A stretch of DNA of 64,000 nucleotides from Serratia liquefaciens (GTDB taxonomy: Bacteria > Pseudomonadota > Gammaproteobacteria > Enterobacterales > Enterobacteriaceae), in assembly GCA_012719855.1 (NCBI GenBank), contig JAAXZN010000050.1, positions 124,001 through 188,000 of the forward strand. Reading direction: 5' to 3'. Both the position numbers and the translations under genes were made by a program. The notes beneath the pieces were generated by a model. It had not been told where the DNA came from. It saw nothing but the letters and a program-made list of their open reading frames with translations, and ran no database searches. Within the stretch, counting starts at the first letter, position 1. Each line of letters begins with the position of its first letter. Of this stretch, positions 27,920 through 36,957 are shown piece after piece.

Positions 27920-28636
27920 TTAAATCAGCTGTAAATACACCGCTTTTGCGGTGGCGGCGGTTTTATTGGCCACCGACAGCTTTTTAATCGAGTTACCGAT
28001 GTGGAAATTTACGGTGCGCTCACTCAGCCCCATTAACAATGCCGTTTCTTCCGAAGTTTTGCCTTCGCTGCACCAGCGTAAAATATCTTTCTCACGCAGC
28101 GTCAGCACATCCTTTATCGCCTCGTCGTTTACCGATATTAATGCTTCGCGCAGCGTCTTGTGGGCGATCTGCGCCAGCCACAGAAAGAAAGTTTCGTTAC
28201 GAGCCCCGGCCTGCGGGGACTGAGCGGGGATACTCTTACCGGCAAAAGTAAGGATGCCCAGCCGACCGTAGCAATCCTTGACGGACTGTGACCATCCCTC
28301 GCGGATGCCGTACTGCGCCATGCGCCACCACAGCTCCGGTTTATCCCGGTAGAACGGCTCGTCCCAATAGAATTGCAGCGTAGAGTGATGGGCCTGTTCG
28401 ATCATCGGATCCTGCAGATAGATCCGCAGTTTGCGGCAATCTTCCAGATACTGCGCGGGATAATTACCCTCTATCAACATCTTGGGTCGGCTGGCCGGGT
28501 AGCAGGAAAAGACCGTATAAGAGAAGTACTCGAAACCCAGCGCCTGGGCGCAAGGTGCCAGACGGCTTAAAAAAAGGTCGCGGTCAGACAGGCTACTAAG
28601 CAGATCATCCATCAAAGGCTGAAAGTGAGTGTCCAT
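27920..28636 (-). CDS. LuxR-family solo regulator with autoinducer-binding domain
   Basis: 238 residues from the ATG at 28636 (GGAGAA upstream). The N-terminal domain (about 15-160) has the autoinducer-binding layout and the C-terminus (from about 175) a LuxR HTH (LTLREKDILRWCSEG, LSERTVNFHIGNSIKKL). In the ligand pocket, D76-P77, W91 and G114 are kept. The two aromatic residues that normally hold the acyl-homoserine lactone (W57 and Y61 in TraR) are Tyr63 and Cys67 here. No luxI-type gene is in the window. It is divergent from the CoA-enzyme/ALAS-like operon and is the obvious candidate regulator of it. Confidence 0.88.
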   Translation of the reverse strand: MDTHFQPLMDDLLSSLSDRDLFLSRLAPCAQALGFEYFSYTVFSCYPASRPKMLIEGNYPAQYLEDCRKLRIYLQDPMIEQAHHSTLQFYWDEPFYRDKPELWWRMAQYGIREGWSQSVKDCYGRLGILTFAGKSIPAQSPQAGARNETFFLWLAQIAHKTLREALISVNDEAIKDVLTLREKDILRWCSEGKTSEETALLMGLSERTVNFHIGNSIKKLSVANKTAATAKAVYLQLI

Positions 28637-28981
28637 AACACGGGTTCTCCAGAGCACAGCGCCGCAATCATTAAGTGAGGTTAACTATAGTGGAGGGCTC
28701 AGAACGACAACAGCCGTTTCATATAATAAAAAATACCATGGCTATAACAAAAACAGCTATTCCCCTGCCATTATTAATAAATAACGACTTTATATTTCAC
28801 CGGCGCCACGAATTACGCGAATAACATAAAGCCTATTTATTGTAAACCTGTCACTTCTACCGTTAGACAGTCACACCGCCGCCAATTACCTTCGCCATAG
28901 GCACCTGGTGCTTTTTAAAGCCGAATAAAATATAAGCATTTGCGAATTTTGCAAAGCAGAAGAATACTCACGGGGATTTTT
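28637..28981. promoter_or_regulatory. Divergent control region, luxR-like gene / acyl-CoA operon
   Basis: AT-rich 345-base region. CTGTC at 28848-28852 and GACAG at 28866-28870 make an inverted repeat, longer than the usual 20-bp lux box. GCACCTGGTGC at 28901-28911 is a perfect palindrome closer to the operon start. CATATAATAAAA near 28722 could be a -10 region. Site assignments are tentative. Confidence 0.45.
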
Positions 28982-30511
28982 ATGGCAGAGAATAATACGG
29001 CAATAAATTCGGTCGCCGTGATTGGCGCCGGAACCATGGGCAGAGGCATTGCCTATCTTTTGGCACTGAACGGCATACGAACCCTGCTTTATAATCGTAA
29101 CGGTAATCATCTTAACCAGGCTCGGGATTATATTGTCGGCGACCTGGATAAAAAAATCGACAACGGAAAAATAAGCCAACAGAAAAAGGGCGAGATCCTG
29201 GCCAATCTGGTTTTCTCGCCTGTTTTCGACGCCATTGCCGACAGTGACCTGGTGATTGAAACCATAGCGGAACATGAACCCACCAAGCATGAGATCCTCG
29301 CGGCCATTGCCGCCACGGTAAAAAAAGAGGCTATTATCGCCACCAATACCTCTTCGCTGTCGCTGAATAAACTGGCCGCAGGGATAGAAAACAACTCGCG
29401 CTTTATCGGCCTGCATTTCTTCAACCCGGCACCGCTGATGAAGCTGATCGAAATTATCCCGTCCTATTTTACCGCCCGGGCCACCACCTTACGCTGCCAG
29501 CAGTTGGTCACGGCGATAGGCAAAAAATTTGTGGTTTGCAAAGCCACGCCGGGCTTTATCGTCAATCGCATGGCGCGACCTTTTTATCTGGAAGGTTTTC
29601 GCCTGCTGGAGGAAAACGTGGCGCTGGCACCGCAAATCGACCGCGCACTGAAGGCCGGAGGCCACTTTCGCATGGGGCCTTTGGAGCTGACTGATTTTAT
29701 CGGTCAGGACATTAATTATCAGGTCAGCAGCCAGATTTGGCAGGACATGCAGTATGACCCCCGCTATACCCCCGGCCATTTGCAACGTTCGCTGGTGGAT
29801 GCCGGGCTGTTGGGGAAGAAAAACGGGCGCTCTTTTTTTTCCCCCTCGGCTGACGCAGCCAACCCACCGGCTACCGGCGGCGGTACGCTGAGCTCGCTGC
29901 ATTTTTTTGGCGAACACCCGCTGTTTGATCTGCTGCAACAGCACGCCTTCGCGACCTGGGCCCCCCTGGCAATAACACGTCAGCCGGAACACCCGGTTCT
30001 GGGCCGTTTTATCCAGGTGAATGACAGTCTGGCAGTCAAAATCACCGACGGGCGAACGGCCAATCAGCTTGCCGAGCTGGCGGGCCTCGATACCTTCGTG
30101 GTCGACGTTGCACTGAACTATGCCAACACCGCTTTTCTGGTGGCCGCCCACAGCCAACAGGCTACCGAGGCGAATAAAGCGCTGTTCCTCACGCTGCTGC
30201 AAACGGTGATCCCGCAGGTGGAGTTTGTTAAAGATTCCCCAGGCCTGATCGTCGCCCGGGTTCTGAGCAGCCTGATCAATGAGTCGGTGATCATGGTGGA
30301 GAGCGGAGTTTGTAGCCGAGAAGACATCGATATCGCCGCCGTGGCCGGCGTCAACTATGCCGACGGCATTTTTGCCTGGCTGGCGCAGCTCGGGCAGAAA
30401 AACGTGAAATCGACGCTGGATAATATGGCGCAACTGCTGCATTCCGCCCGCTATTACCCGCACTACTCGTTGCTCCACGCTACCAGGCCCGAGCTGGCCG
30501 TCGCGCCATGA
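28982..30511 (+). CDS. 3-hydroxyacyl-CoA dehydrogenase, PaaH-like, fused C-terminal domains
   Basis: NAD-dependent interconversion of 3-oxo- and 3-hydroxyacyl-CoA. 509 residues from the ATG at 28982. Rossmann motif VIGAGTMGRGIAYLLALNG at about residues 12-30. Catalytic region ATNTSSLSLNKLA and GLHFFNPAPLMKL (catalytic His). First C-terminal 3HCDH domain (GFIVNRMARPFYLEG) and a second one at about 385-500 (GLIVARVLSSLINESVIMVE). This two-lobed layout is that of PaaH/PaaC, the 3-hydroxyadipyl-CoA dehydrogenase. First gene of a five-gene operon; the thiolase follows after 9 bases. Confidence 0.9.
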   Translation: MAENNTAINSVAVIGAGTMGRGIAYLLALNGIRTLLYNRNGNHLNQARDYIVGDLDKKIDNGKISQQKKGEILANLVFSPVFDAIADSDLVIETIAEHEPTKHEILAAIAATVKKEAIIATNTSSLSLNKLAAGIENNSRFIGLHFFNPAPLMKLIEIIPSYFTARATTLRCQQLVTAIGKKFVVCKATPGFIVNRMARPFYLEGFRLLEENVALAPQIDRALKAGGHFRMGPLELTDFIGQDINYQVSSQIWQDMQYDPRYTPGHLQRSLVDAGLLGKKNGRSFFSPSADAANPPATGGGTLSSLHFFGEHPLFDLLQQHAFATWAPLAITRQPEHPVLGRFIQVNDSLAVKITDGRTANQLAELAGLDTFVVDVALNYANTAFLVAAHSQQATEANKALFLTLLQTVIPQVEFVKDSPGLIVARVLSSLINESVIMVESGVCSREDIDIAAVAGVNYADGIFAWLAQLGQKNVKSTLDNMAQLLHSARYYPHYSLLHATRPELAVAP

Positions 30512-30520
30512 GGAAAAATA

Positions 30521-31732
30521 ATGACGATTAAAGACGATGGGGTCTATCTGATCGACGGTACGCGCACGGCGATCGGTGCATATGGCGGCAGTCTGGCATT
30601 AACCCGTCCGGACGACATGGCGGCCTCGATTATTCGGGCGTTGCTGCAACGACACCCGGAAAGCGAGCCGGATATCGATGAGGTGGTGCTGGGCTGCGCC
30701 AATCAGGCCGGTGAAGACAACCGTAACGTCGCACGCATGGCGGCGTTGTTGTCCGGTTTGGATCAGGGAGTACCGGCGATTACCCTTAACCGGCTGTGCG
30801 CCTCCGGTCTGGACGCCGTGATTTATGCCGGCGCAAAAATCAAAAGCGGCCTTAGCGATCTGGTGTTGGCGGGCGGTGTCGAAAGCATGAGCCGCGCGCC
30901 CTATGTAATGGGCAAAAGCGAAACGCCTTTCGACAAGGGGATCAAACTGTTCGATACCACGCTGGGCTGGCGTTTTGTCAATCCGCAGTTGGCACAACGC
31001 TATGGCAGCGATCCATTGGGTATCACGGCCGAAAACGTCGCGCAGCAATACCGCATATCCCGCGAGGATCAGGATAATTTTGCCCTGGCGTCGCAGCAGA
31101 AGGCCTGGCGGGCTATCGAAAATGGCCGATTGGCCAGGGAGATCACCGCGCTGGATGTGCAGATCGATCGCAAAACTCGCCAATCCTTCGCTCAAGATGA
31201 GTTCCCGCGCCAGACCACGTTGCAAAAACTGCAGGCGCTGAAACCGGCCTTCACCGCCGAAGGCTCGGTCACCGCCGGCAATGCCTCCGGTATCAATGAC
31301 GGCGCCGCCGTGCTGTTGCTGGCCAGCGGTCGCTATGTCAAGCGCAAGTCACTCCAGCCGCTGGCGGAAATTGGCGACAGCGCCAGCGCCGGCGTTGCCC
31401 CCTCGTTGATGGGGATTGGGCCAATCGCCGCGACCGAGCGCCTGCTGACGCGAACCGGTTTTACGCTGAACGATTTCGACATCATTGAAATTAATGAGGC
31501 GTTTGCCGCGCAGGTGTTGGCGACGCTGCAAAGCTGGCACATCGACTTCGACGATGCGCGAGTCAATCCGAACGGCGGTGCCATCGCCCTCGGGCATCCG
31601 CTGGGCATGTCCGGCGCGCGACTGGTGCTTTCCAGCGCGCTGGAGTTACATACCCGGCAATTAAACAATGCGCTGGTGACAATGTGTGTCGGTGTCGGCC
31701 AGGGTGTTTCACTGGTGATTAAAGCCCTCTAA
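30521..31732 (+). CDS. PaaJ/PcaF-like 3-oxoadipyl-CoA thiolase
   Basis: Thiolase of 403 residues catalysing reversible Claisen condensation. GCANQAGEDNRNVARMA and GGVESMSRAPYVMGK are nearly the sequence of 3-oxoadipyl-CoA thiolases. The acyl-accepting cysteine is in LNRLCASGLD (about residue 92), the acid/base residues in GGAIALGHPLGMSG and MCVGVGQG. In degradation this enzyme yields succinyl-CoA and acetyl-CoA; here, without paa genes, it could run in the building direction. The 3-hydroxyacyl-CoA partner is directly upstream. Confidence 0.9.
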   Translation: MTIKDDGVYLIDGTRTAIGAYGGSLALTRPDDMAASIIRALLQRHPESEPDIDEVVLGCANQAGEDNRNVARMAALLSGLDQGVPAITLNRLCASGLDAVIYAGAKIKSGLSDLVLAGGVESMSRAPYVMGKSETPFDKGIKLFDTTLGWRFVNPQLAQRYGSDPLGITAENVAQQYRISREDQDNFALASQQKAWRAIENGRLAREITALDVQIDRKTRQSFAQDEFPRQTTLQKLQALKPAFTAEGSVTAGNASGINDGAAVLLLASGRYVKRKSLQPLAEIGDSASAGVAPSLMGIGPIAATERLLTRTGFTLNDFDIIEINEAFAAQVLATLQSWHIDFDDARVNPNGGAIALGHPLGMSGARLVLSSALELHTRQLNNALVTMCVGVGQGVSLVIKAL

Positions 31733-31747
31733 TGCAAGGAATTCCGT

Positions 31748-32959
31748 ATGAGCGTATTGAACATTCTTGAAGAAAAACTGGCCGAAACCAAAAAACAGGG
31801 CCGGTTCCGCGAGTTCCTCAACCTGGAACGCAGCGTACTGGATAAACCCTGGGCCACCAGCCACGGGCAACAGGGTGAGCGTCGTCTGAACGTCTGGTGC
31901 TCCAATGACTATCTGGCGATGAGCCATCACCCCAAGGTGATTCTGGCCACCACCGAGGCGGTAAACCGTGTCGGGCTGGGTACCTGCGGGGCACGCAGTA
32001 TTTCCGGCACTTCGATCTACCACAGCGAGTTGGAAACCTTGCTGGCCACGGCCTACGGCAAGGAGTCCGCGCTGTTGTTCACCACCGGCTTTGGGGCTAA
32101 TGACGCCACGCTCTCGACGCTGTGCGACGCCATTCCCAACCTGATCGTCTTTTCTGATGAGCTGAACCATGCTTCGATGATTTACGGCATTCGCTACAGC
32201 AAAGCGGAGAAGAAAATCTTTCGCCACAATGACGTTGCGCACCTGGCCGAGCTGCTGCAGGAAGCCGATCCGCAGCGTCCCAAGCTGATCGCCTTCGAAT
32301 CGCTCTATTCGATGGACGGCGACTTTGCCCCGCTGGCGCAGATTGTCGCGCTGGCGGAGAAACATCAGGCGCTGACTTATCTGGACGAAATCCACTCCGC
32401 CGGCGTTTACGGCCAGCGGGGCCTGGGCTATGCCGAACAACTGGGCCTGCTGGACAAGATCACCATCATTCAGGGGGGCTTTGGTAAGTCCTACGGCGCT
32501 GCCGGTGGCTATATCGCTGCGCCGCGCGTGGTGGTCGAAGCCGTGCGCAGTTGGGCACCGGCGTTCGTCTTCAGCACCTCCTCCCCCGCGCCGGTGGTGG
32601 CGGCGGCGCTGGCCAGCTTCAAATACAACCTGGAGCATGACAACCAACGCAAACATCTGCTGGCGATTATCGATCACCTGAAATCCGGCCTGCGCACCGC
32701 CGGTATTCCACTGGTCTCGGAGGACAGCCATATTCTGCCGATGCTGGTCGGCGATCCACACAGGAACAAACACATCAGCAAACAACTGCTCGATGAGTAC
32801 GATATTTACGTGCAACCGGTCAATGCCCCGACGGTGCCGGCCGGCAGCGAGCGTTTGCGGGTTACGCCGACCTCGGCCCATACTCATGAGGATGTGGAGT
32901 ATTTCCTGGTGGCGCTGAGCAAAGTCTGGGCCGCCAATACGTTACGGAGAGCGGGATGA
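31748..32959 (+). CDS. 5-aminolevulinate-synthase-like alpha-oxoamine synthase
   Basis: PLP enzyme (fold type I) condensing an acyl-CoA with an amino acid to an aminoketone. 403 residues, ALAS length and pattern: VWCSNDYLAMSHHPKV, GKESALLFTTGF, LNHASMI, YLDEIHSAGVYG, the PLP lysine in GGFGKSYG, and IYVQPVNAPTVPAGSERLR. In Rhodobacter ALAS, Arg21, Thr83 and Asn85 hold the succinyl carboxylate. Here Arg21 is kept but the others are Ala82 and Ser84 (GARSISG in place of GTRNISG), so the acyl donor is probably not succinyl-CoA. Enterics make haem from glutamyl-tRNA, so a haem role is unlikely. The stop overlaps the MFS start (ATGA). Confidence 0.9.
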   Translation: MSVLNILEEKLAETKKQGRFREFLNLERSVLDKPWATSHGQQGERRLNVWCSNDYLAMSHHPKVILATTEAVNRVGLGTCGARSISGTSIYHSELETLLATAYGKESALLFTTGFGANDATLSTLCDAIPNLIVFSDELNHASMIYGIRYSKAEKKIFRHNDVAHLAELLQEADPQRPKLIAFESLYSMDGDFAPLAQIVALAEKHQALTYLDEIHSAGVYGQRGLGYAEQLGLLDKITIIQGGFGKSYGAAGGYIAAPRVVVEAVRSWAPAFVFSTSSPAPVVAAALASFKYNLEHDNQRKHLLAIIDHLKSGLRTAGIPLVSEDSHILPMLVGDPHRNKHISKQLLDEYDIYVQPVNAPTVPAGSERLRVTPTSAHTHEDVEYFLVALSKVWAANTLRRAG

Positions 32960-34152
32960 AGTTGACGGACTATAACGGCCATTTTCTTACGCTGTGCCTG
33001 ATGGCTACCGGCACCTTTGCCATCGGTACCGATGCGTTTATCGTCGCCGGCATACTTGACGAGATTTCCGGCACCTTTGCCGTCAGCCCCGCGCAGGCGG
33101 GGCAGTTAATCTCGGTCTTCGCCCTGGCCTATATGGTGTTCGCTCCGCTGACCGCCTGGCTGCTGGGCAACCTCAACCGCAAACATATCTTGCAGCTGGC
33201 TCTGCTGTTGTTTATCGCCGGTAACCTGGTTTGCGCCTACGCCGACAGCTTTTTGCAAATCTCTGCCGGGCGCGTACTGGCGGCGCTGGGGGCGGCTTGC
33301 TACACGCCGCAGGCCGCCGCCGCCGCGGTAGGGTTGGTATCGGAAAAACGCCGCGGGCTGGCGATATCGATTGTGTATGGCGGCATGACGCTGGCTATCG
33401 CGCTGGGCATTCCCTTCGGCACCTTCCTGGCCAAGCTGATCGGCTGGCGGGAGATCTTCCTGCTGATCGCCCTGTTAGGTGCCGTTGCACTGCTGGGGCT
33501 TTCACTGGCGCTGAACGCCATCGCCGCGCCGGGGAAACATACGCTGAAAGAGCGGTTGGCCCCGCTACGGCAAAAGGCAGTGCTGACCACGCTGCTGATC
33601 ACTTTCTTCGCGGTCTGCTCCGAACATATTGTTTACAGCTATGTGAGCGTATTGCTGAAGAATACTCAGTTGGGCCCGGAGGCGATTTTGCCCATCGCGC
33701 TGCTGATCTTCGGTATTGGGGCCGTCATCGGCAATTTCGTTTCCGGTTTATTGACCGATACCTTCGGCAGTAAATTTGTCCTGCTGTTTTCCGTGTCGAT
33801 TCAAACCCTCTCGCTGTTCCTGCTGGCCTTTTACGTCACTTCCCCCTGGTGGGTGCTGGCAATATTTCTGGTGTGGGGGATTACCGGCTGGATGTATCTG
33901 GTACCTATTCAGCACCACTTGTTGTCGCTGTCCAAACGTTTTGGCGCGCTGACGGTGTCGCTGAACAGCTCGGTATTGTATGCCGGCATTGCGGCGGGGG
34001 GCATGCTCGGCGGCCTGACGCTGTATACCTTGCCTGCCTATTACCTGCCGCTGTTTTCATTGCCGCTGGGGGCCATCGCCCTGCTGCTGACGCTGGTGTT
34101 CTTCCAGGGAGAAAAAGCCCATGACGGACCTGCCGCCACCGGTGCTGTATGA
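32956..34152 (+). CDS. MFS transporter, DHA1-type exporter
   Basis: 398-residue membrane protein with twelve predicted spans, of the arabinose-efflux/drug:H+ antiporter-1 kind (TFAIGTDAFIVAGIL at the first helix, a YMVFAPL segment, NRKH in the 2-3 loop). It shares ATGA with the aminoketone synthase and overlaps the hydratase by 32 bases. That coupling suggests export of the operon product, or its uptake. Confidence 0.88.
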   Translation: MKLTDYNGHFLTLCLMATGTFAIGTDAFIVAGILDEISGTFAVSPAQAGQLISVFALAYMVFAPLTAWLLGNLNRKHILQLALLLFIAGNLVCAYADSFLQISAGRVLAALGAACYTPQAAAAAVGLVSEKRRGLAISIVYGGMTLAIALGIPFGTFLAKLIGWREIFLLIALLGAVALLGLSLALNAIAAPGKHTLKERLAPLRQKAVLTTLLITFFAVCSEHIVYSYVSVLLKNTQLGPEAILPIALLIFGIGAVIGNFVSGLLTDTFGSKFVLLFSVSIQTLSLFLLAFYVTSPWWVLAIFLVWGITGWMYLVPIQHHLLSLSKRFGALTVSLNSSVLYAGIAAGGMLGGLTLYTLPAYYLPLFSLPLGAIALLLTLVFFQGEKAHDGPAATGAV

Positions 34153-34840
34153 GCAACAGGACGGCATCGCCGTGATTACCCTGAACCGGCCGGAAAAAAA
34201 GAACGCCATCAATTTGGCGATGGCTCGCCTGATCCAACGCTATCTGCAACAGGCCGAGCAGGATGACAAGGTTCGGGTGATCCTGTTGACCGGGCAGCCA
34301 CAGGTGTTCTCTGCCGGGATGGACGTCAAAGCATTTCAACAGGGCGAACTTCCGGTGGTCGAGCCGGAAGGCTTTGCCGGCCTGGTGCATGCGCAGCTCA
34401 CCAAGGTGATTATCGCCGCCGTGGACGGTATCGCCTTCGGTGGAGGGTTTGAAATAGCGCTGGCCTGCGACCTGATCGTAGCCGGGCGAGATGCGCAATT
34501 CAGTTTCCCGGAGACCGGGCTGGGGCTGATTGCAGCACAAGGAGGATGTTCACGCCTGCCGGCGCGCATCTCCCCCTATATCGCCCTCGACTGGTTGCTG
34601 ACCGGCCGCTTGATAGGCGCGGAGGAGGCCTGGCGGCACGGGGTTTTTTCACGTATCAGTGAGGGAAGCGCTCTGGAGGACGCACGGCTGATCGCCCAGC
34701 AAATTGCCCAGAAAAACCCGTTGGCTACCCAGGCGGTAAAAGCCATAGTTCGTCATGGAATGGCGCAACATGAGGCCCCCAGCTTTGATTACCAACAAAG
34801 TTGGGTCGATCAGGTGCGGTTGGCGGCAAAAGGCTTTTAA
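34121..34840 (+). CDS. Enoyl-CoA hydratase/isomerase family protein
   Basis: 239-residue crotonase-fold enzyme. Oxyanion-hole segments SAGMDVKAF and DGIAFGGGFEIALACD; both hydratase glutamates are present (GGGFEIAL and QFSFPETGLG), so true hydratase/dehydratase activity is plausible. In this context it would interconvert 3-hydroxyacyl- and 2-enoyl-CoA. Last gene of the operon, starting inside the MFS gene and followed by a terminator. Confidence 0.9.
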   Translation: MTDLPPPVLYEQQDGIAVITLNRPEKKNAINLAMARLIQRYLQQAEQDDKVRVILLTGQPQVFSAGMDVKAFQQGELPVVEPEGFAGLVHAQLTKVIIAAVDGIAFGGGFEIALACDLIVAGRDAQFSFPETGLGLIAAQGGCSRLPARISPYIALDWLLTGRLIGAEEAWRHGVFSRISEGSALEDARLIAQQIAQKNPLATQAVKAIVRHGMAQHEAPSFDYQQSWVDQVRLAAKGF

Positions 34841-34916: not shown

Positions 34917-34939
34917 CCCCGCTGTGCGGGGATTTTTTT
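34917..34939 (+). terminator. Terminator of the acyl-CoA/aminoketone operon
   Basis: Stem CCCCGC/GCGGGG with loop TGT, then T7. Confidence 0.93.
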
Positions 34940-35643: not shown

Positions 35644-36957
35644 GTGAGTAATACGACCAACACCAGTTCCGCGCTCAATTCGGCGATTAAAAAAACGTGG
35701 CGCAGATTGATCCCCCTGATGTTCTCTCTGTATTTCGTCGCCTTTATCGATCGGGTAAACGTGGGCTTTGCCAAGGAGGCGATGTCGGTGGATATTGCCC
35801 TGTCGCAATCCGCCTTCGCATTGGGCGCTGGCATTTTCTTCGCGGCTTACGCCATCTTCGGGATCCCGGCCAATCTGATGATGAACAAGCTGGGGGCGAA
35901 AGTCTGGCTTAGCGCCACCACGGCAGTGTGGGGGGCCTTGTCCGCCTGCACCGGTTTCGTCAGCAACGAATATCAATTTATCGCCCTGCGCTTCCTGCTG
36001 GGATTGGCGGAGGCCGGCTTCTACCCCGGTATTCTGTTGCTGGCCTCCCTTTATTTCCCCAACAAGGTCCGGGCTTCGGTGATTGGTATTTTTGTGCTTG
36101 GCGTTCCCGCAGCCTTGACGCTCGGCTCGCCCATTTCGGGTGCGCTGCTCGAAATGCACGGTGTGCTGGGGCGGCCAGGCTGGTTCTGGATGTTTGTTCT
36201 GGAAGGCTTACCGGCCGTCGTGTTGGGGATCTTCGCCTATTTCTATCTTGACGACAGCCCGGCCAAGGCGCGATTTCTTAACCCGGAAGAGAAGCAGGCA
36301 TTGGTGGCACAGTTGGCCCTGGAGCAAAAAAATACCGAGGCCAGCAGCGTGAGAGAGGCGTTGAAAAATACCAAGGTTTGGCACCTGGCTTTTATTTACG
36401 GCACCATTCAGGTCGGCGTGTATGGCCTGTTGTTTTTTCTGCCCTCGCAGGTGGCCTCGCTGATGGGCACCACTATCGGGTTTAAGGCATCGCTGGTAGC
36501 GGCAATTCCCTGGGCCGTTTCTGCATTTGGGGTCTATTACATCCCGCGTTATGCCGACCGCAAAACCTCCCGCCGCTTGCCCATCGCTATCGGCTGCATG
36601 GTGATTGCCGCACTGGGTTTGGTTGTCTCGTCCTATGCCGGCCCGACTATTGCCATTATTGCGCTGTGCTTTTGCGCCGTCAGCTTCCTGGCGGTACAGC
36701 CGATATTCTGGACCTTACCGGCACAGATACTTTCAGGCCCGGCGCTGGCGGCCGGCATCGGTTTTTGCACCACGCTGGGCGCACTGTTCAGTTTCCTGGC
36801 ACCACTAATCCGCACCGAGGCAGAACTGCGCTTCGATAGCCCGCATGCCGGCCTGATCGTACTGGCGATTTTCTCTTTGCTGTGCGCCGCGCTGATTTTT
36901 GCACTCAAAGGGTGGGCTACGCAGAGCGCCGAACGTCAAGCTCAGGTTAGTGGATAA
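35644..36957 (+). CDS. MFS transporter, anion:cation symporter (ACS) type
   Basis: 437 residues with twelve spans. The opening LYFVAFIDRVNVGFAKEAM is characteristic of ACS-family carriers for organic anions such as 4-hydroxyphenylacetate, phthalate or tartrate. GTG start at 35644 with GAGGGTAA upstream. Alone in its transcript; the substrate is not readable. Confidence 0.88.
   Translation: MSNTTNTSSALNSAIKKTWRRLIPLMFSLYFVAFIDRVNVGFAKEAMSVDIALSQSAFALGAGIFFAAYAIFGIPANLMMNKLGAKVWLSATTAVWGALSACTGFVSNEYQFIALRFLLGLAEAGFYPGILLLASLYFPNKVRASVIGIFVLGVPAALTLGSPISGALLEMHGVLGRPGWFWMFVLEGLPAVVLGIFAYFYLDDSPAKARFLNPEEKQALVAQLALEQKNTEASSVREALKNTKVWHLAFIYGTIQVGVYGLLFFLPSQVASLMGTTIGFKASLVAAIPWAVSAFGVYYIPRYADRKTSRRLPIAIGCMVIAALGLVVSSYAGPTIAIIALCFCAVSFLAVQPIFWTLPAQILSGPALAAGIGFCTTLGALFSFLAPLIRTEAELRFDSPHAGLIVLAIFSLLCAALIFALKGWATQSAERQAQVSG

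Follow-up and report, generated by a model that had tools for sequence, protein, structure and literature searches.

What is an enzyme resembling 5-aminolevulinate synthase (ALAS) doing in Serratia liquefaciens between a thiolase and an export pump? The question is raised by a stretch of 64,000 nucleotides (the window; positions 124,001 to 188,000 of contig JAAXZN010000050.1, assembly GCA_012719855.1), in which a LuxR-type solo regulator faces an operon for a 3-hydroxyacyl-CoA dehydrogenase (HAD), a 3-oxoacyl-CoA thiolase, an ALAS-like alpha-oxoamine synthase, a pump of the major facilitator superfamily (MFS) and an enoyl-CoA hydratase (ECH). We propose, with a probability of about 0.6, that the five genes form a small biosynthetic operon whose product, an alpha-aminoketone, is exported. 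Such a product had been suggested in a sequence-only reading of the locus, and gene content, conservation and the residues of the synthase keep it the best reading, with the product itself still a prediction.

The operon is real and conserved, and its grouping is not a matter of chance, since the order luxR, HAD, thiolase, synthase, MFS, ECH is kept in all 18 Serratia genomes with the ALAS-like gene (the window, L115-L130 and L021) and the ratios of nonsynonymous to synonymous substitution (dN/dS) are low. In these 18 genomes the operon is flanked by Ldh/Usp genes on one side and ABM/DedA genes on the other. The median dN/dS of the six genes, from pairs with dS of 0.1-0.8, is 0.044-0.126, lowest for the ALAS-like gene (0.044) and 0.068 for the pump. 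Open frames for all six genes lie within the span given by the sequence-only reading, and its gaps between the operon genes (9, 15, -4 and -32 nt, from HAD to ECH) were found as well. The terminator it placed 3' of ECH may correspond to a stem-loop with a T run seen in a consensus scan, where terminator-like sites numbered 17 against 8.7 expected and promoter-like sites were at chance level (5 against 5.3).

The neighbourhood thus recurs in 18 of 30 Serratia genomes, and four of its genes stand in the same order on plasmid pRgalIE4872c of Rhizobium gallicum (HAD 42%, thiolase 64%, synthase 68% and MFS 51% identity), followed there by an AhpD/CMD-type protein and an ECH-HAD fusion. A decayed copy in Rhizobium etli Mim1 has the synthase, MFS, a peroxidase-related protein and ECH; the HAD is gone, a 48-residue piece of the thiolase is left, and an annotated transposase gene lies upstream. 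This broken cluster (L012 8547-16556, plasmid pRetMIM1e) has genes for type III secretion and nodulation in its vicinity. In the 25-kb stretch that holds each Rhizobium cluster, no LuxR match reached E<=1e-15.

The synthase is 92-96% identical to those of S. plymuthica, S. proteamaculans (two sequences), S. quinivorans, S. ureilytica, S. bockelmannii, S. marcescens and S. nevei, which are 8 of the best 80 among 455 confirmed relatives, the remaining 72 being at 52% identity or less. The scan of genome contigs first requires an exact 8-residue stretch, so that relatives without one escape it. Of 295 family-level genomes, 6 had a match at E<=1e-90, namely two Serratia, a decayed copy in genome G145 of another genus, and three at 44-46% identity in other settings. 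At class level 4 of 369 matched at E<=1e-95, the window's own genome and three at 45-47% identity, and these three carry T83 or S83 together with N85 and T245 (ALAS numbering, see below). Among 176 plasmid records matching at E<=1e-60, two exceed 60% identity, and the operon DNA had no match among 20,395 E. coli records. The family of G321 (genome of Phyllobacterium locus L077), sampled with 394 genomes, gave no match at E<=1e-150, an empty answer that carries no weight because a known-match control was absent.

The genomes that have lost the enzymes are informative about the pump. LuxR is present in 24 of the 30 Serratia genomes and the MFS gene in the same 24. In all six that have LuxR and no synthase (L143-L148), LuxR still faces the MFS gene, and of HAD, thiolase, synthase and ECH nothing or only remnants are left on both sides of it. 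The alignment of L143 to the window runs to position 28990 and then jumps to MFS, and in L144 a short stretch from the start of HAD, the end of the synthase gene and a piece of ECH survive. In a midpoint-rooted tree of five flanking genes, the six non-producers fall in four places among the producers: L145-L147 beside producer L126 (support 0.997), L148 with L123 (1.000), L143 with the group of the window (1.000), and L144 with L122 (0.950). As the MFS gene lies between HAD-thiolase-synthase and ECH and is kept at all four places, plain deletion is not expected to give this pattern. In all six, the reading frames of LuxR and MFS remain open and their dN/dS is below 1. It is as if relatives without the making enzymes had kept the regulator and the export pump for protection. 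In G145 (L114 4561-7914) a decayed operon has LuxR (96%) and MFS (97%) around an in-frame HAD-synthase deletion fusion, and nearby open reading frames (ORFs) look transposase-like.

In the pathway that we propose, the thiolase would join an acyl-CoA, by its family succinyl-CoA, with acetyl-CoA to a 3-oxoacyl-CoA, which the HAD would reduce and the ECH then dehydrate, all three enzymes running in the synthetic direction. The ALAS-derived synthase would condense the resulting acyl-CoA with an amino acid, perhaps larger than glycine, and decarboxylate it. The MFS pump would export the aminoketone and confer immunity to it, as its retention in six genomes without the enzymes suggests. The position and conservation of the candidate operator (Table 1) suggest that LuxR would use it to control both pump and enzymes, perhaps, and this is the weaker part, in answer to the product or a related compound. 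The left-half bases of the operator, AA.CTGT.A, do not vary among all 25 loci aligned, from 24 Serratia genomes and G145 and with the non-producers among them. Allowing up to 3 mismatches, the 24-base core of the operator has a single occurrence in the genome; a CT-N12-AG pattern, tried by eye, did not fit. The genes, their order, the residues, the losses and the selection are observed, whereas the direction of the pathway, its substrates, the product, its activity and the LuxR ligand are what we infer for this operon. From the retention pattern of LuxR and pump, an antimetabolite with pump immunity is more likely than a pure signal. It is conceivable, and we put this forward tentatively, that the antimetabolite is an ALA (5-aminolevulinate)-like mimic whose precursors are a C6-dicarboxyl-CoA, either unsaturated or hydroxylated, and an amino acid bigger than glycine, that LuxR senses it and switches on the immunity pump, and that non-producers keep sensor and pump. 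We know of no alpha-aminoketone ligand of a LuxR of the N-acyl homoserine lactone (AHL) type.

The sequence-only reading had gone further and closed a signalling circuit, with the aminoketone as an autoinducer sensed by the LuxR solo. Consistent with this, luxR is divergent from the operon in all 18 producers, and W57 of the AHL site is replaced in all 24 Serratia LuxR proteins, by Y in 22 and by F in 2, so that the full AHL-binding residue set is not present; LuxR in the non-producers could moreover be eavesdropping. However, of the six AHL-site residues W57, Y61, D70, P71, W85 and G113 (PMC10134790; this and the other papers are cited from part of their text), the last four are kept in 24/24 and Y61 in 23/24, so that the protein may still sense AHLs. 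The exception at Y61 is a C in the window genome only, with Tyr in L116 of the same species. Numbers are those of TraR, by alignment to QscR and SdiA, and the closest solved structures are RhlR variants, QscR and SdiA. There is also no LuxR near the two Rhizobium clusters, and the non-producers hold the pump besides LuxR, pointing to efflux. The persistence of LuxR together with the pump in six genomes fits immunity or eavesdropping better than self-signalling, and the circuit as stated is therefore not supported; we consider it unlikely.

If the LuxR-pump pair instead guarded against foreign compounds, and the enzymes were a dispensable side operon, the wider occurrence of LuxR and MFS (24/30) than of the ALAS-like gene (18/30) would be accounted for. 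But within the operon the MFS gene shares 4 nt with the gene before it and 32 nt with the one after, and it travels with the enzymes in R. gallicum without LuxR, which makes this explanation rather improbable.

The residues of the synthase bear on the exported aminoketone from another side. Its A82, S84 and G244 align with T83, N85 and T245 of R. capsulatus ALAS, which are found in 74, 74 and 73 of the 74 alphaproteobacterial ALAS compared (L013, L014, L023-L094); A, S and G are found in 27 of 27 rows of the clade (18 Serratia genomes in 25 rows, seven of these being second copies of the same genome, and two Rhizobium, with the G145 fragment excluded). At ten positions in total, these three included, the 74 ALAS are at least 95% invariant and all 27 rows carry a different residue. 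R21, S137, K156, K248, T365 and R374 are kept, the catalytic Lys among the conserved features; the site roles of these six residues, and of N85 and T245, are those that we take them to have in ALAS. The synthase is 46-52% identical to the 74 ALAS, and in a FastTree phylogeny, in which eukaryotic and actinobacterial ALAS were not sampled, its clade (support 1.0, parent node 0.93) is sister to ALAS and enzymes with S83. T83 of ALAS holds the carboxyl of the succinyl group in place and governs specificity for the amino acid (PMC4525017), and at the matching V79 of ThAOS small residues widen the choice of amino acid (PMC11906848). There V79A still used glycine, better than the wild type, and V79T used L-Ala only, which implies that residue 83 acts in context. 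The parts seen of PMC7272653 and PMC8892079 hold nothing on these residues.

A HemA of the C5 route is encoded elsewhere in the genome, above its model cut-off, and haem need not depend on the ALAS-like gene. Together with the altered substrate-site residues this makes a plain haem role unlikely, as the earlier reading had held, and an ordinary haem ALAS was set aside on these grounds. By its residues, the synthase does not look like an ordinary ALAS. An ordinary enzyme supplying extra 5-aminolevulinate, with export, would agree with the retained R21 and T365 and with a score of 506.9 bits against the NCBIfam model TIGR01821 (cut-off 338.55), but not with T83A, N85S and T245G in 27/27 rows or with the presence of HemA. 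As it also leaves HAD, thiolase and ECH unexplained, we find it quite improbable.

Compared with known systems, the synthase shares with the ALAS of the Shemin pathway its family, the catalytic Lys and most substrate-site residues; it differs by A83, S85 and G245, its sister position in the FastTree phylogeny, the HAD-thiolase-ECH-MFS setting and a C5-route HemA in the genome. The cyclizing ALAS of the C5N antibiotics is likewise ALAS-derived, belongs to secondary metabolism and is changed at T83, but it carries T83S and T365S (PMC4525017), whereas the operon synthase has A83 and keeps T365, which speaks against this identity. Antibiotics that act as ALA mimics have a precedent in alaremycin, which resembles ALA and inhibits porphobilinogen synthase (PMC12670364, PMC13402209). 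CqsA and LqsA, synthases of alpha-hydroxyketone autoinducers, use the same alpha-oxoamine synthase family for a diffusible molecule; the operon synthase matches weakly (168.7 bits, cut-off 428), so a CqsA-type enzyme is held less likely, and no sensor kinase is found among the six genes. What we take to be the C5N gene set has no further members among the six. Alaremycin clusters presumably use an ALAS-like enzyme for an exported ALA mimic as well, but the N-acetyltransferase and reductase that presumably mark them are absent from the six genes, thiolase, HAD and ECH being present instead, and the lack of an acetyltransferase in the operon speaks against an alaremycin-type pathway.

Other ALAS-like clusters were met during the searches. 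In two other genera of the family (L111 7086-11393 in G184; L112 7066-11373 in G282) an ALAS-like enzyme with S83 and S365 lies beside an MFS gene. In L111 a GNAT acetyltransferase and a Gfo/Idh-type oxidoreductase come next, and an ArsR-type regulator is encoded divergently. The ORFs of L112 are arranged in the same way; the layout recalls what we assume to be the gene content of alaremycin clusters. L113 52-8546 (G291) is a small cluster of an ALAS-like enzyme with S83, N85, G245 and S365, a ScoE-like dioxygenase and a FabH-like ketosynthase, together with a protein with weak argininosuccinate-lyase/ATP-grasp-type matches. Two further gammaproteobacterial ALAS-like enzymes, L164 (G876) and L165 (G817), have S83 and N85.

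The specific family matches of the other operon proteins all lie below their cut-offs. The thiolase exceeds the generic NCBIfam acetyl-CoA acyltransferase model (429.1 bits, cut-off 240.55), and its best specific match is 3-oxoadipyl-CoA thiolase (554, cut-off 605); the motifs CASGL, GHPLGMSG and CVGVGQG are present. The HAD, with GAGTMG, HFFNP and NTSS, matches PaaH at 373 (669) and 3-hydroxyacyl-CoA dehydrogenase at 422.5 (508), the ECH matches crotonase at 237.8 (282), and the MFS matches the Cmx/CmrA efflux model NF033135 at 196.6 (400), besides PRK03545. A catabolic route, in which HAD, ECH and thiolase would break a C6-dicarboxyl-CoA down into acetyl-CoA and succinyl-CoA, the latter drained by the ALAS-like enzyme, agrees with the PcaF- and PaaH-type best matches and with weak HpaX-type matches of the next MFS downstream (35644-36957; 239 bits, cut-off 615), but it is quite unlikely, as CoA ligase, CoA transferase and acyl-CoA dehydrogenase are all absent from the six genes, the genome encodes two further thiolases 53-55% identical to that of the operon, an irreversible ALAS-type step fits badly, and the enzymes are lost while the efflux-type pump stays. 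No ring- or dicarboxylate-activation genes of the phenylacetate or beta-ketoadipate type were found in the six genes or the four neighbours scanned; the absence of phenylacetate genes noted earlier thus holds for the operon, and phenylacetate catabolism was set aside.

Table 1. Features of the luxR-operon locus, in window positions. The HAD start is taken as ATG 28982; the program-made ORF list begins it at TTG 28940.
Feature	Position	Strand	Basis
LuxR-type solo regulator	27920-28657	-	open frame; Autoind_bind and GerE (Pfam)
luxR/operon intergenic stretch, divergent promoter region	28658-28981	.	
Candidate LuxR operator AACCTGTCACTTCTACCGTTAGACAG (CTGTC-N13-GACAG)	28845-28870	+	position, conservation
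PaaH-like 3-hydroxyacyl-CoA dehydrogenase (HAD)	28982-30511	+	open frame; 3HCDH (Pfam); motifs
PcaF/PaaJ-like 3-oxoacyl-CoA thiolase	30521-31732	+	open frame; thiolase (Pfam); motifs
ALAS-like alpha-oxoamine synthase	31748-32959	+	open frame; Aminotran_1_2 (Pfam); TIGR01821
MFS pump	32956-34152	+	open frame; MFS_1 (Pfam)
Enoyl-CoA hydratase (ECH)	34121-34840	+	open frame; ECH_1 (Pfam); both catalytic Glu
Terminator-like stem-loop, G+C-rich with T run	34917-34931	+	consensus scan only

Several points weigh against a biosynthetic operon with an immunity pump. The pump evolves faster in the non-producers, with dN/dS of 0.16-0.19 among L145-L147, 0.11 for L143 against the window, 0.09 for L144 against L122 and 0.30 for L148 against L123, as compared to 0.026-0.079 in five producer pairs; selection on it there looks looser, yet present. 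Nor is the pump kept everywhere, since in six of the 30 Serratia genomes (G298 and G303, of 5.1-5.3 Mb, and G316-G319, of 1.5-3.6 Mb) neither LuxR nor MFS nor synthase gave a match at the thresholds applied, and loss of the whole locus is possible in these. The apparent losses could instead be repeated gains beside an old LuxR-MFS pair; the scars in L143 and L144 argue against gains, for two of the four places only. As for the synthase, it still passes the cut-off of the ALAS model TIGR01821, an Ala at residue 83 would permit and not demand an amino acid other than glycine, and the enzyme may take either the acyl-CoA that thiolase, HAD and ECH provide or just succinyl-CoA. The lack of LuxR around the Rhizobium clusters belongs here as well.

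The regulator has been seen before. A survey of LuxR solos describes an "unknown group 11" with the arrangement hadH - luxR - uspG and W57Y in S. marcescens, S. liquefaciens and S. plymuthica, beside a five-gene "fatty acid metabolism" operon (PMC4338825), and the LuxR studied here has the same hadH - luxR - usp neighbourhood in Serratia and the same changed residue. The sequence-only reading had called the system undescribed, which does not hold for LuxR and its neighbourhood; it may still hold for a biosynthetic role, as neither this nor an ALAS-like enzyme or retention of the pump is named in the part of the survey seen. The words "aminolevulin" and "thiolase" are absent from the text of PMC10134790, and searches of open-licence PMC papers listed none that treats the operon as biosynthetic.

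The operon is probably an uncharted small-molecule pathway in common Serratia, filed by the survey under "fatty acid metabolism", and its Rhizobium relatives carry a hemA annotation. The changed active site offers a direct test of which amino acid and which acyl-CoA the synthase uses, and the six Serratia with regulator and pump and no enzymes are natural non-producers for testing immunity. The operon may also supply a ligand for a group of LuxR proteins left unknown in the 2015 survey.

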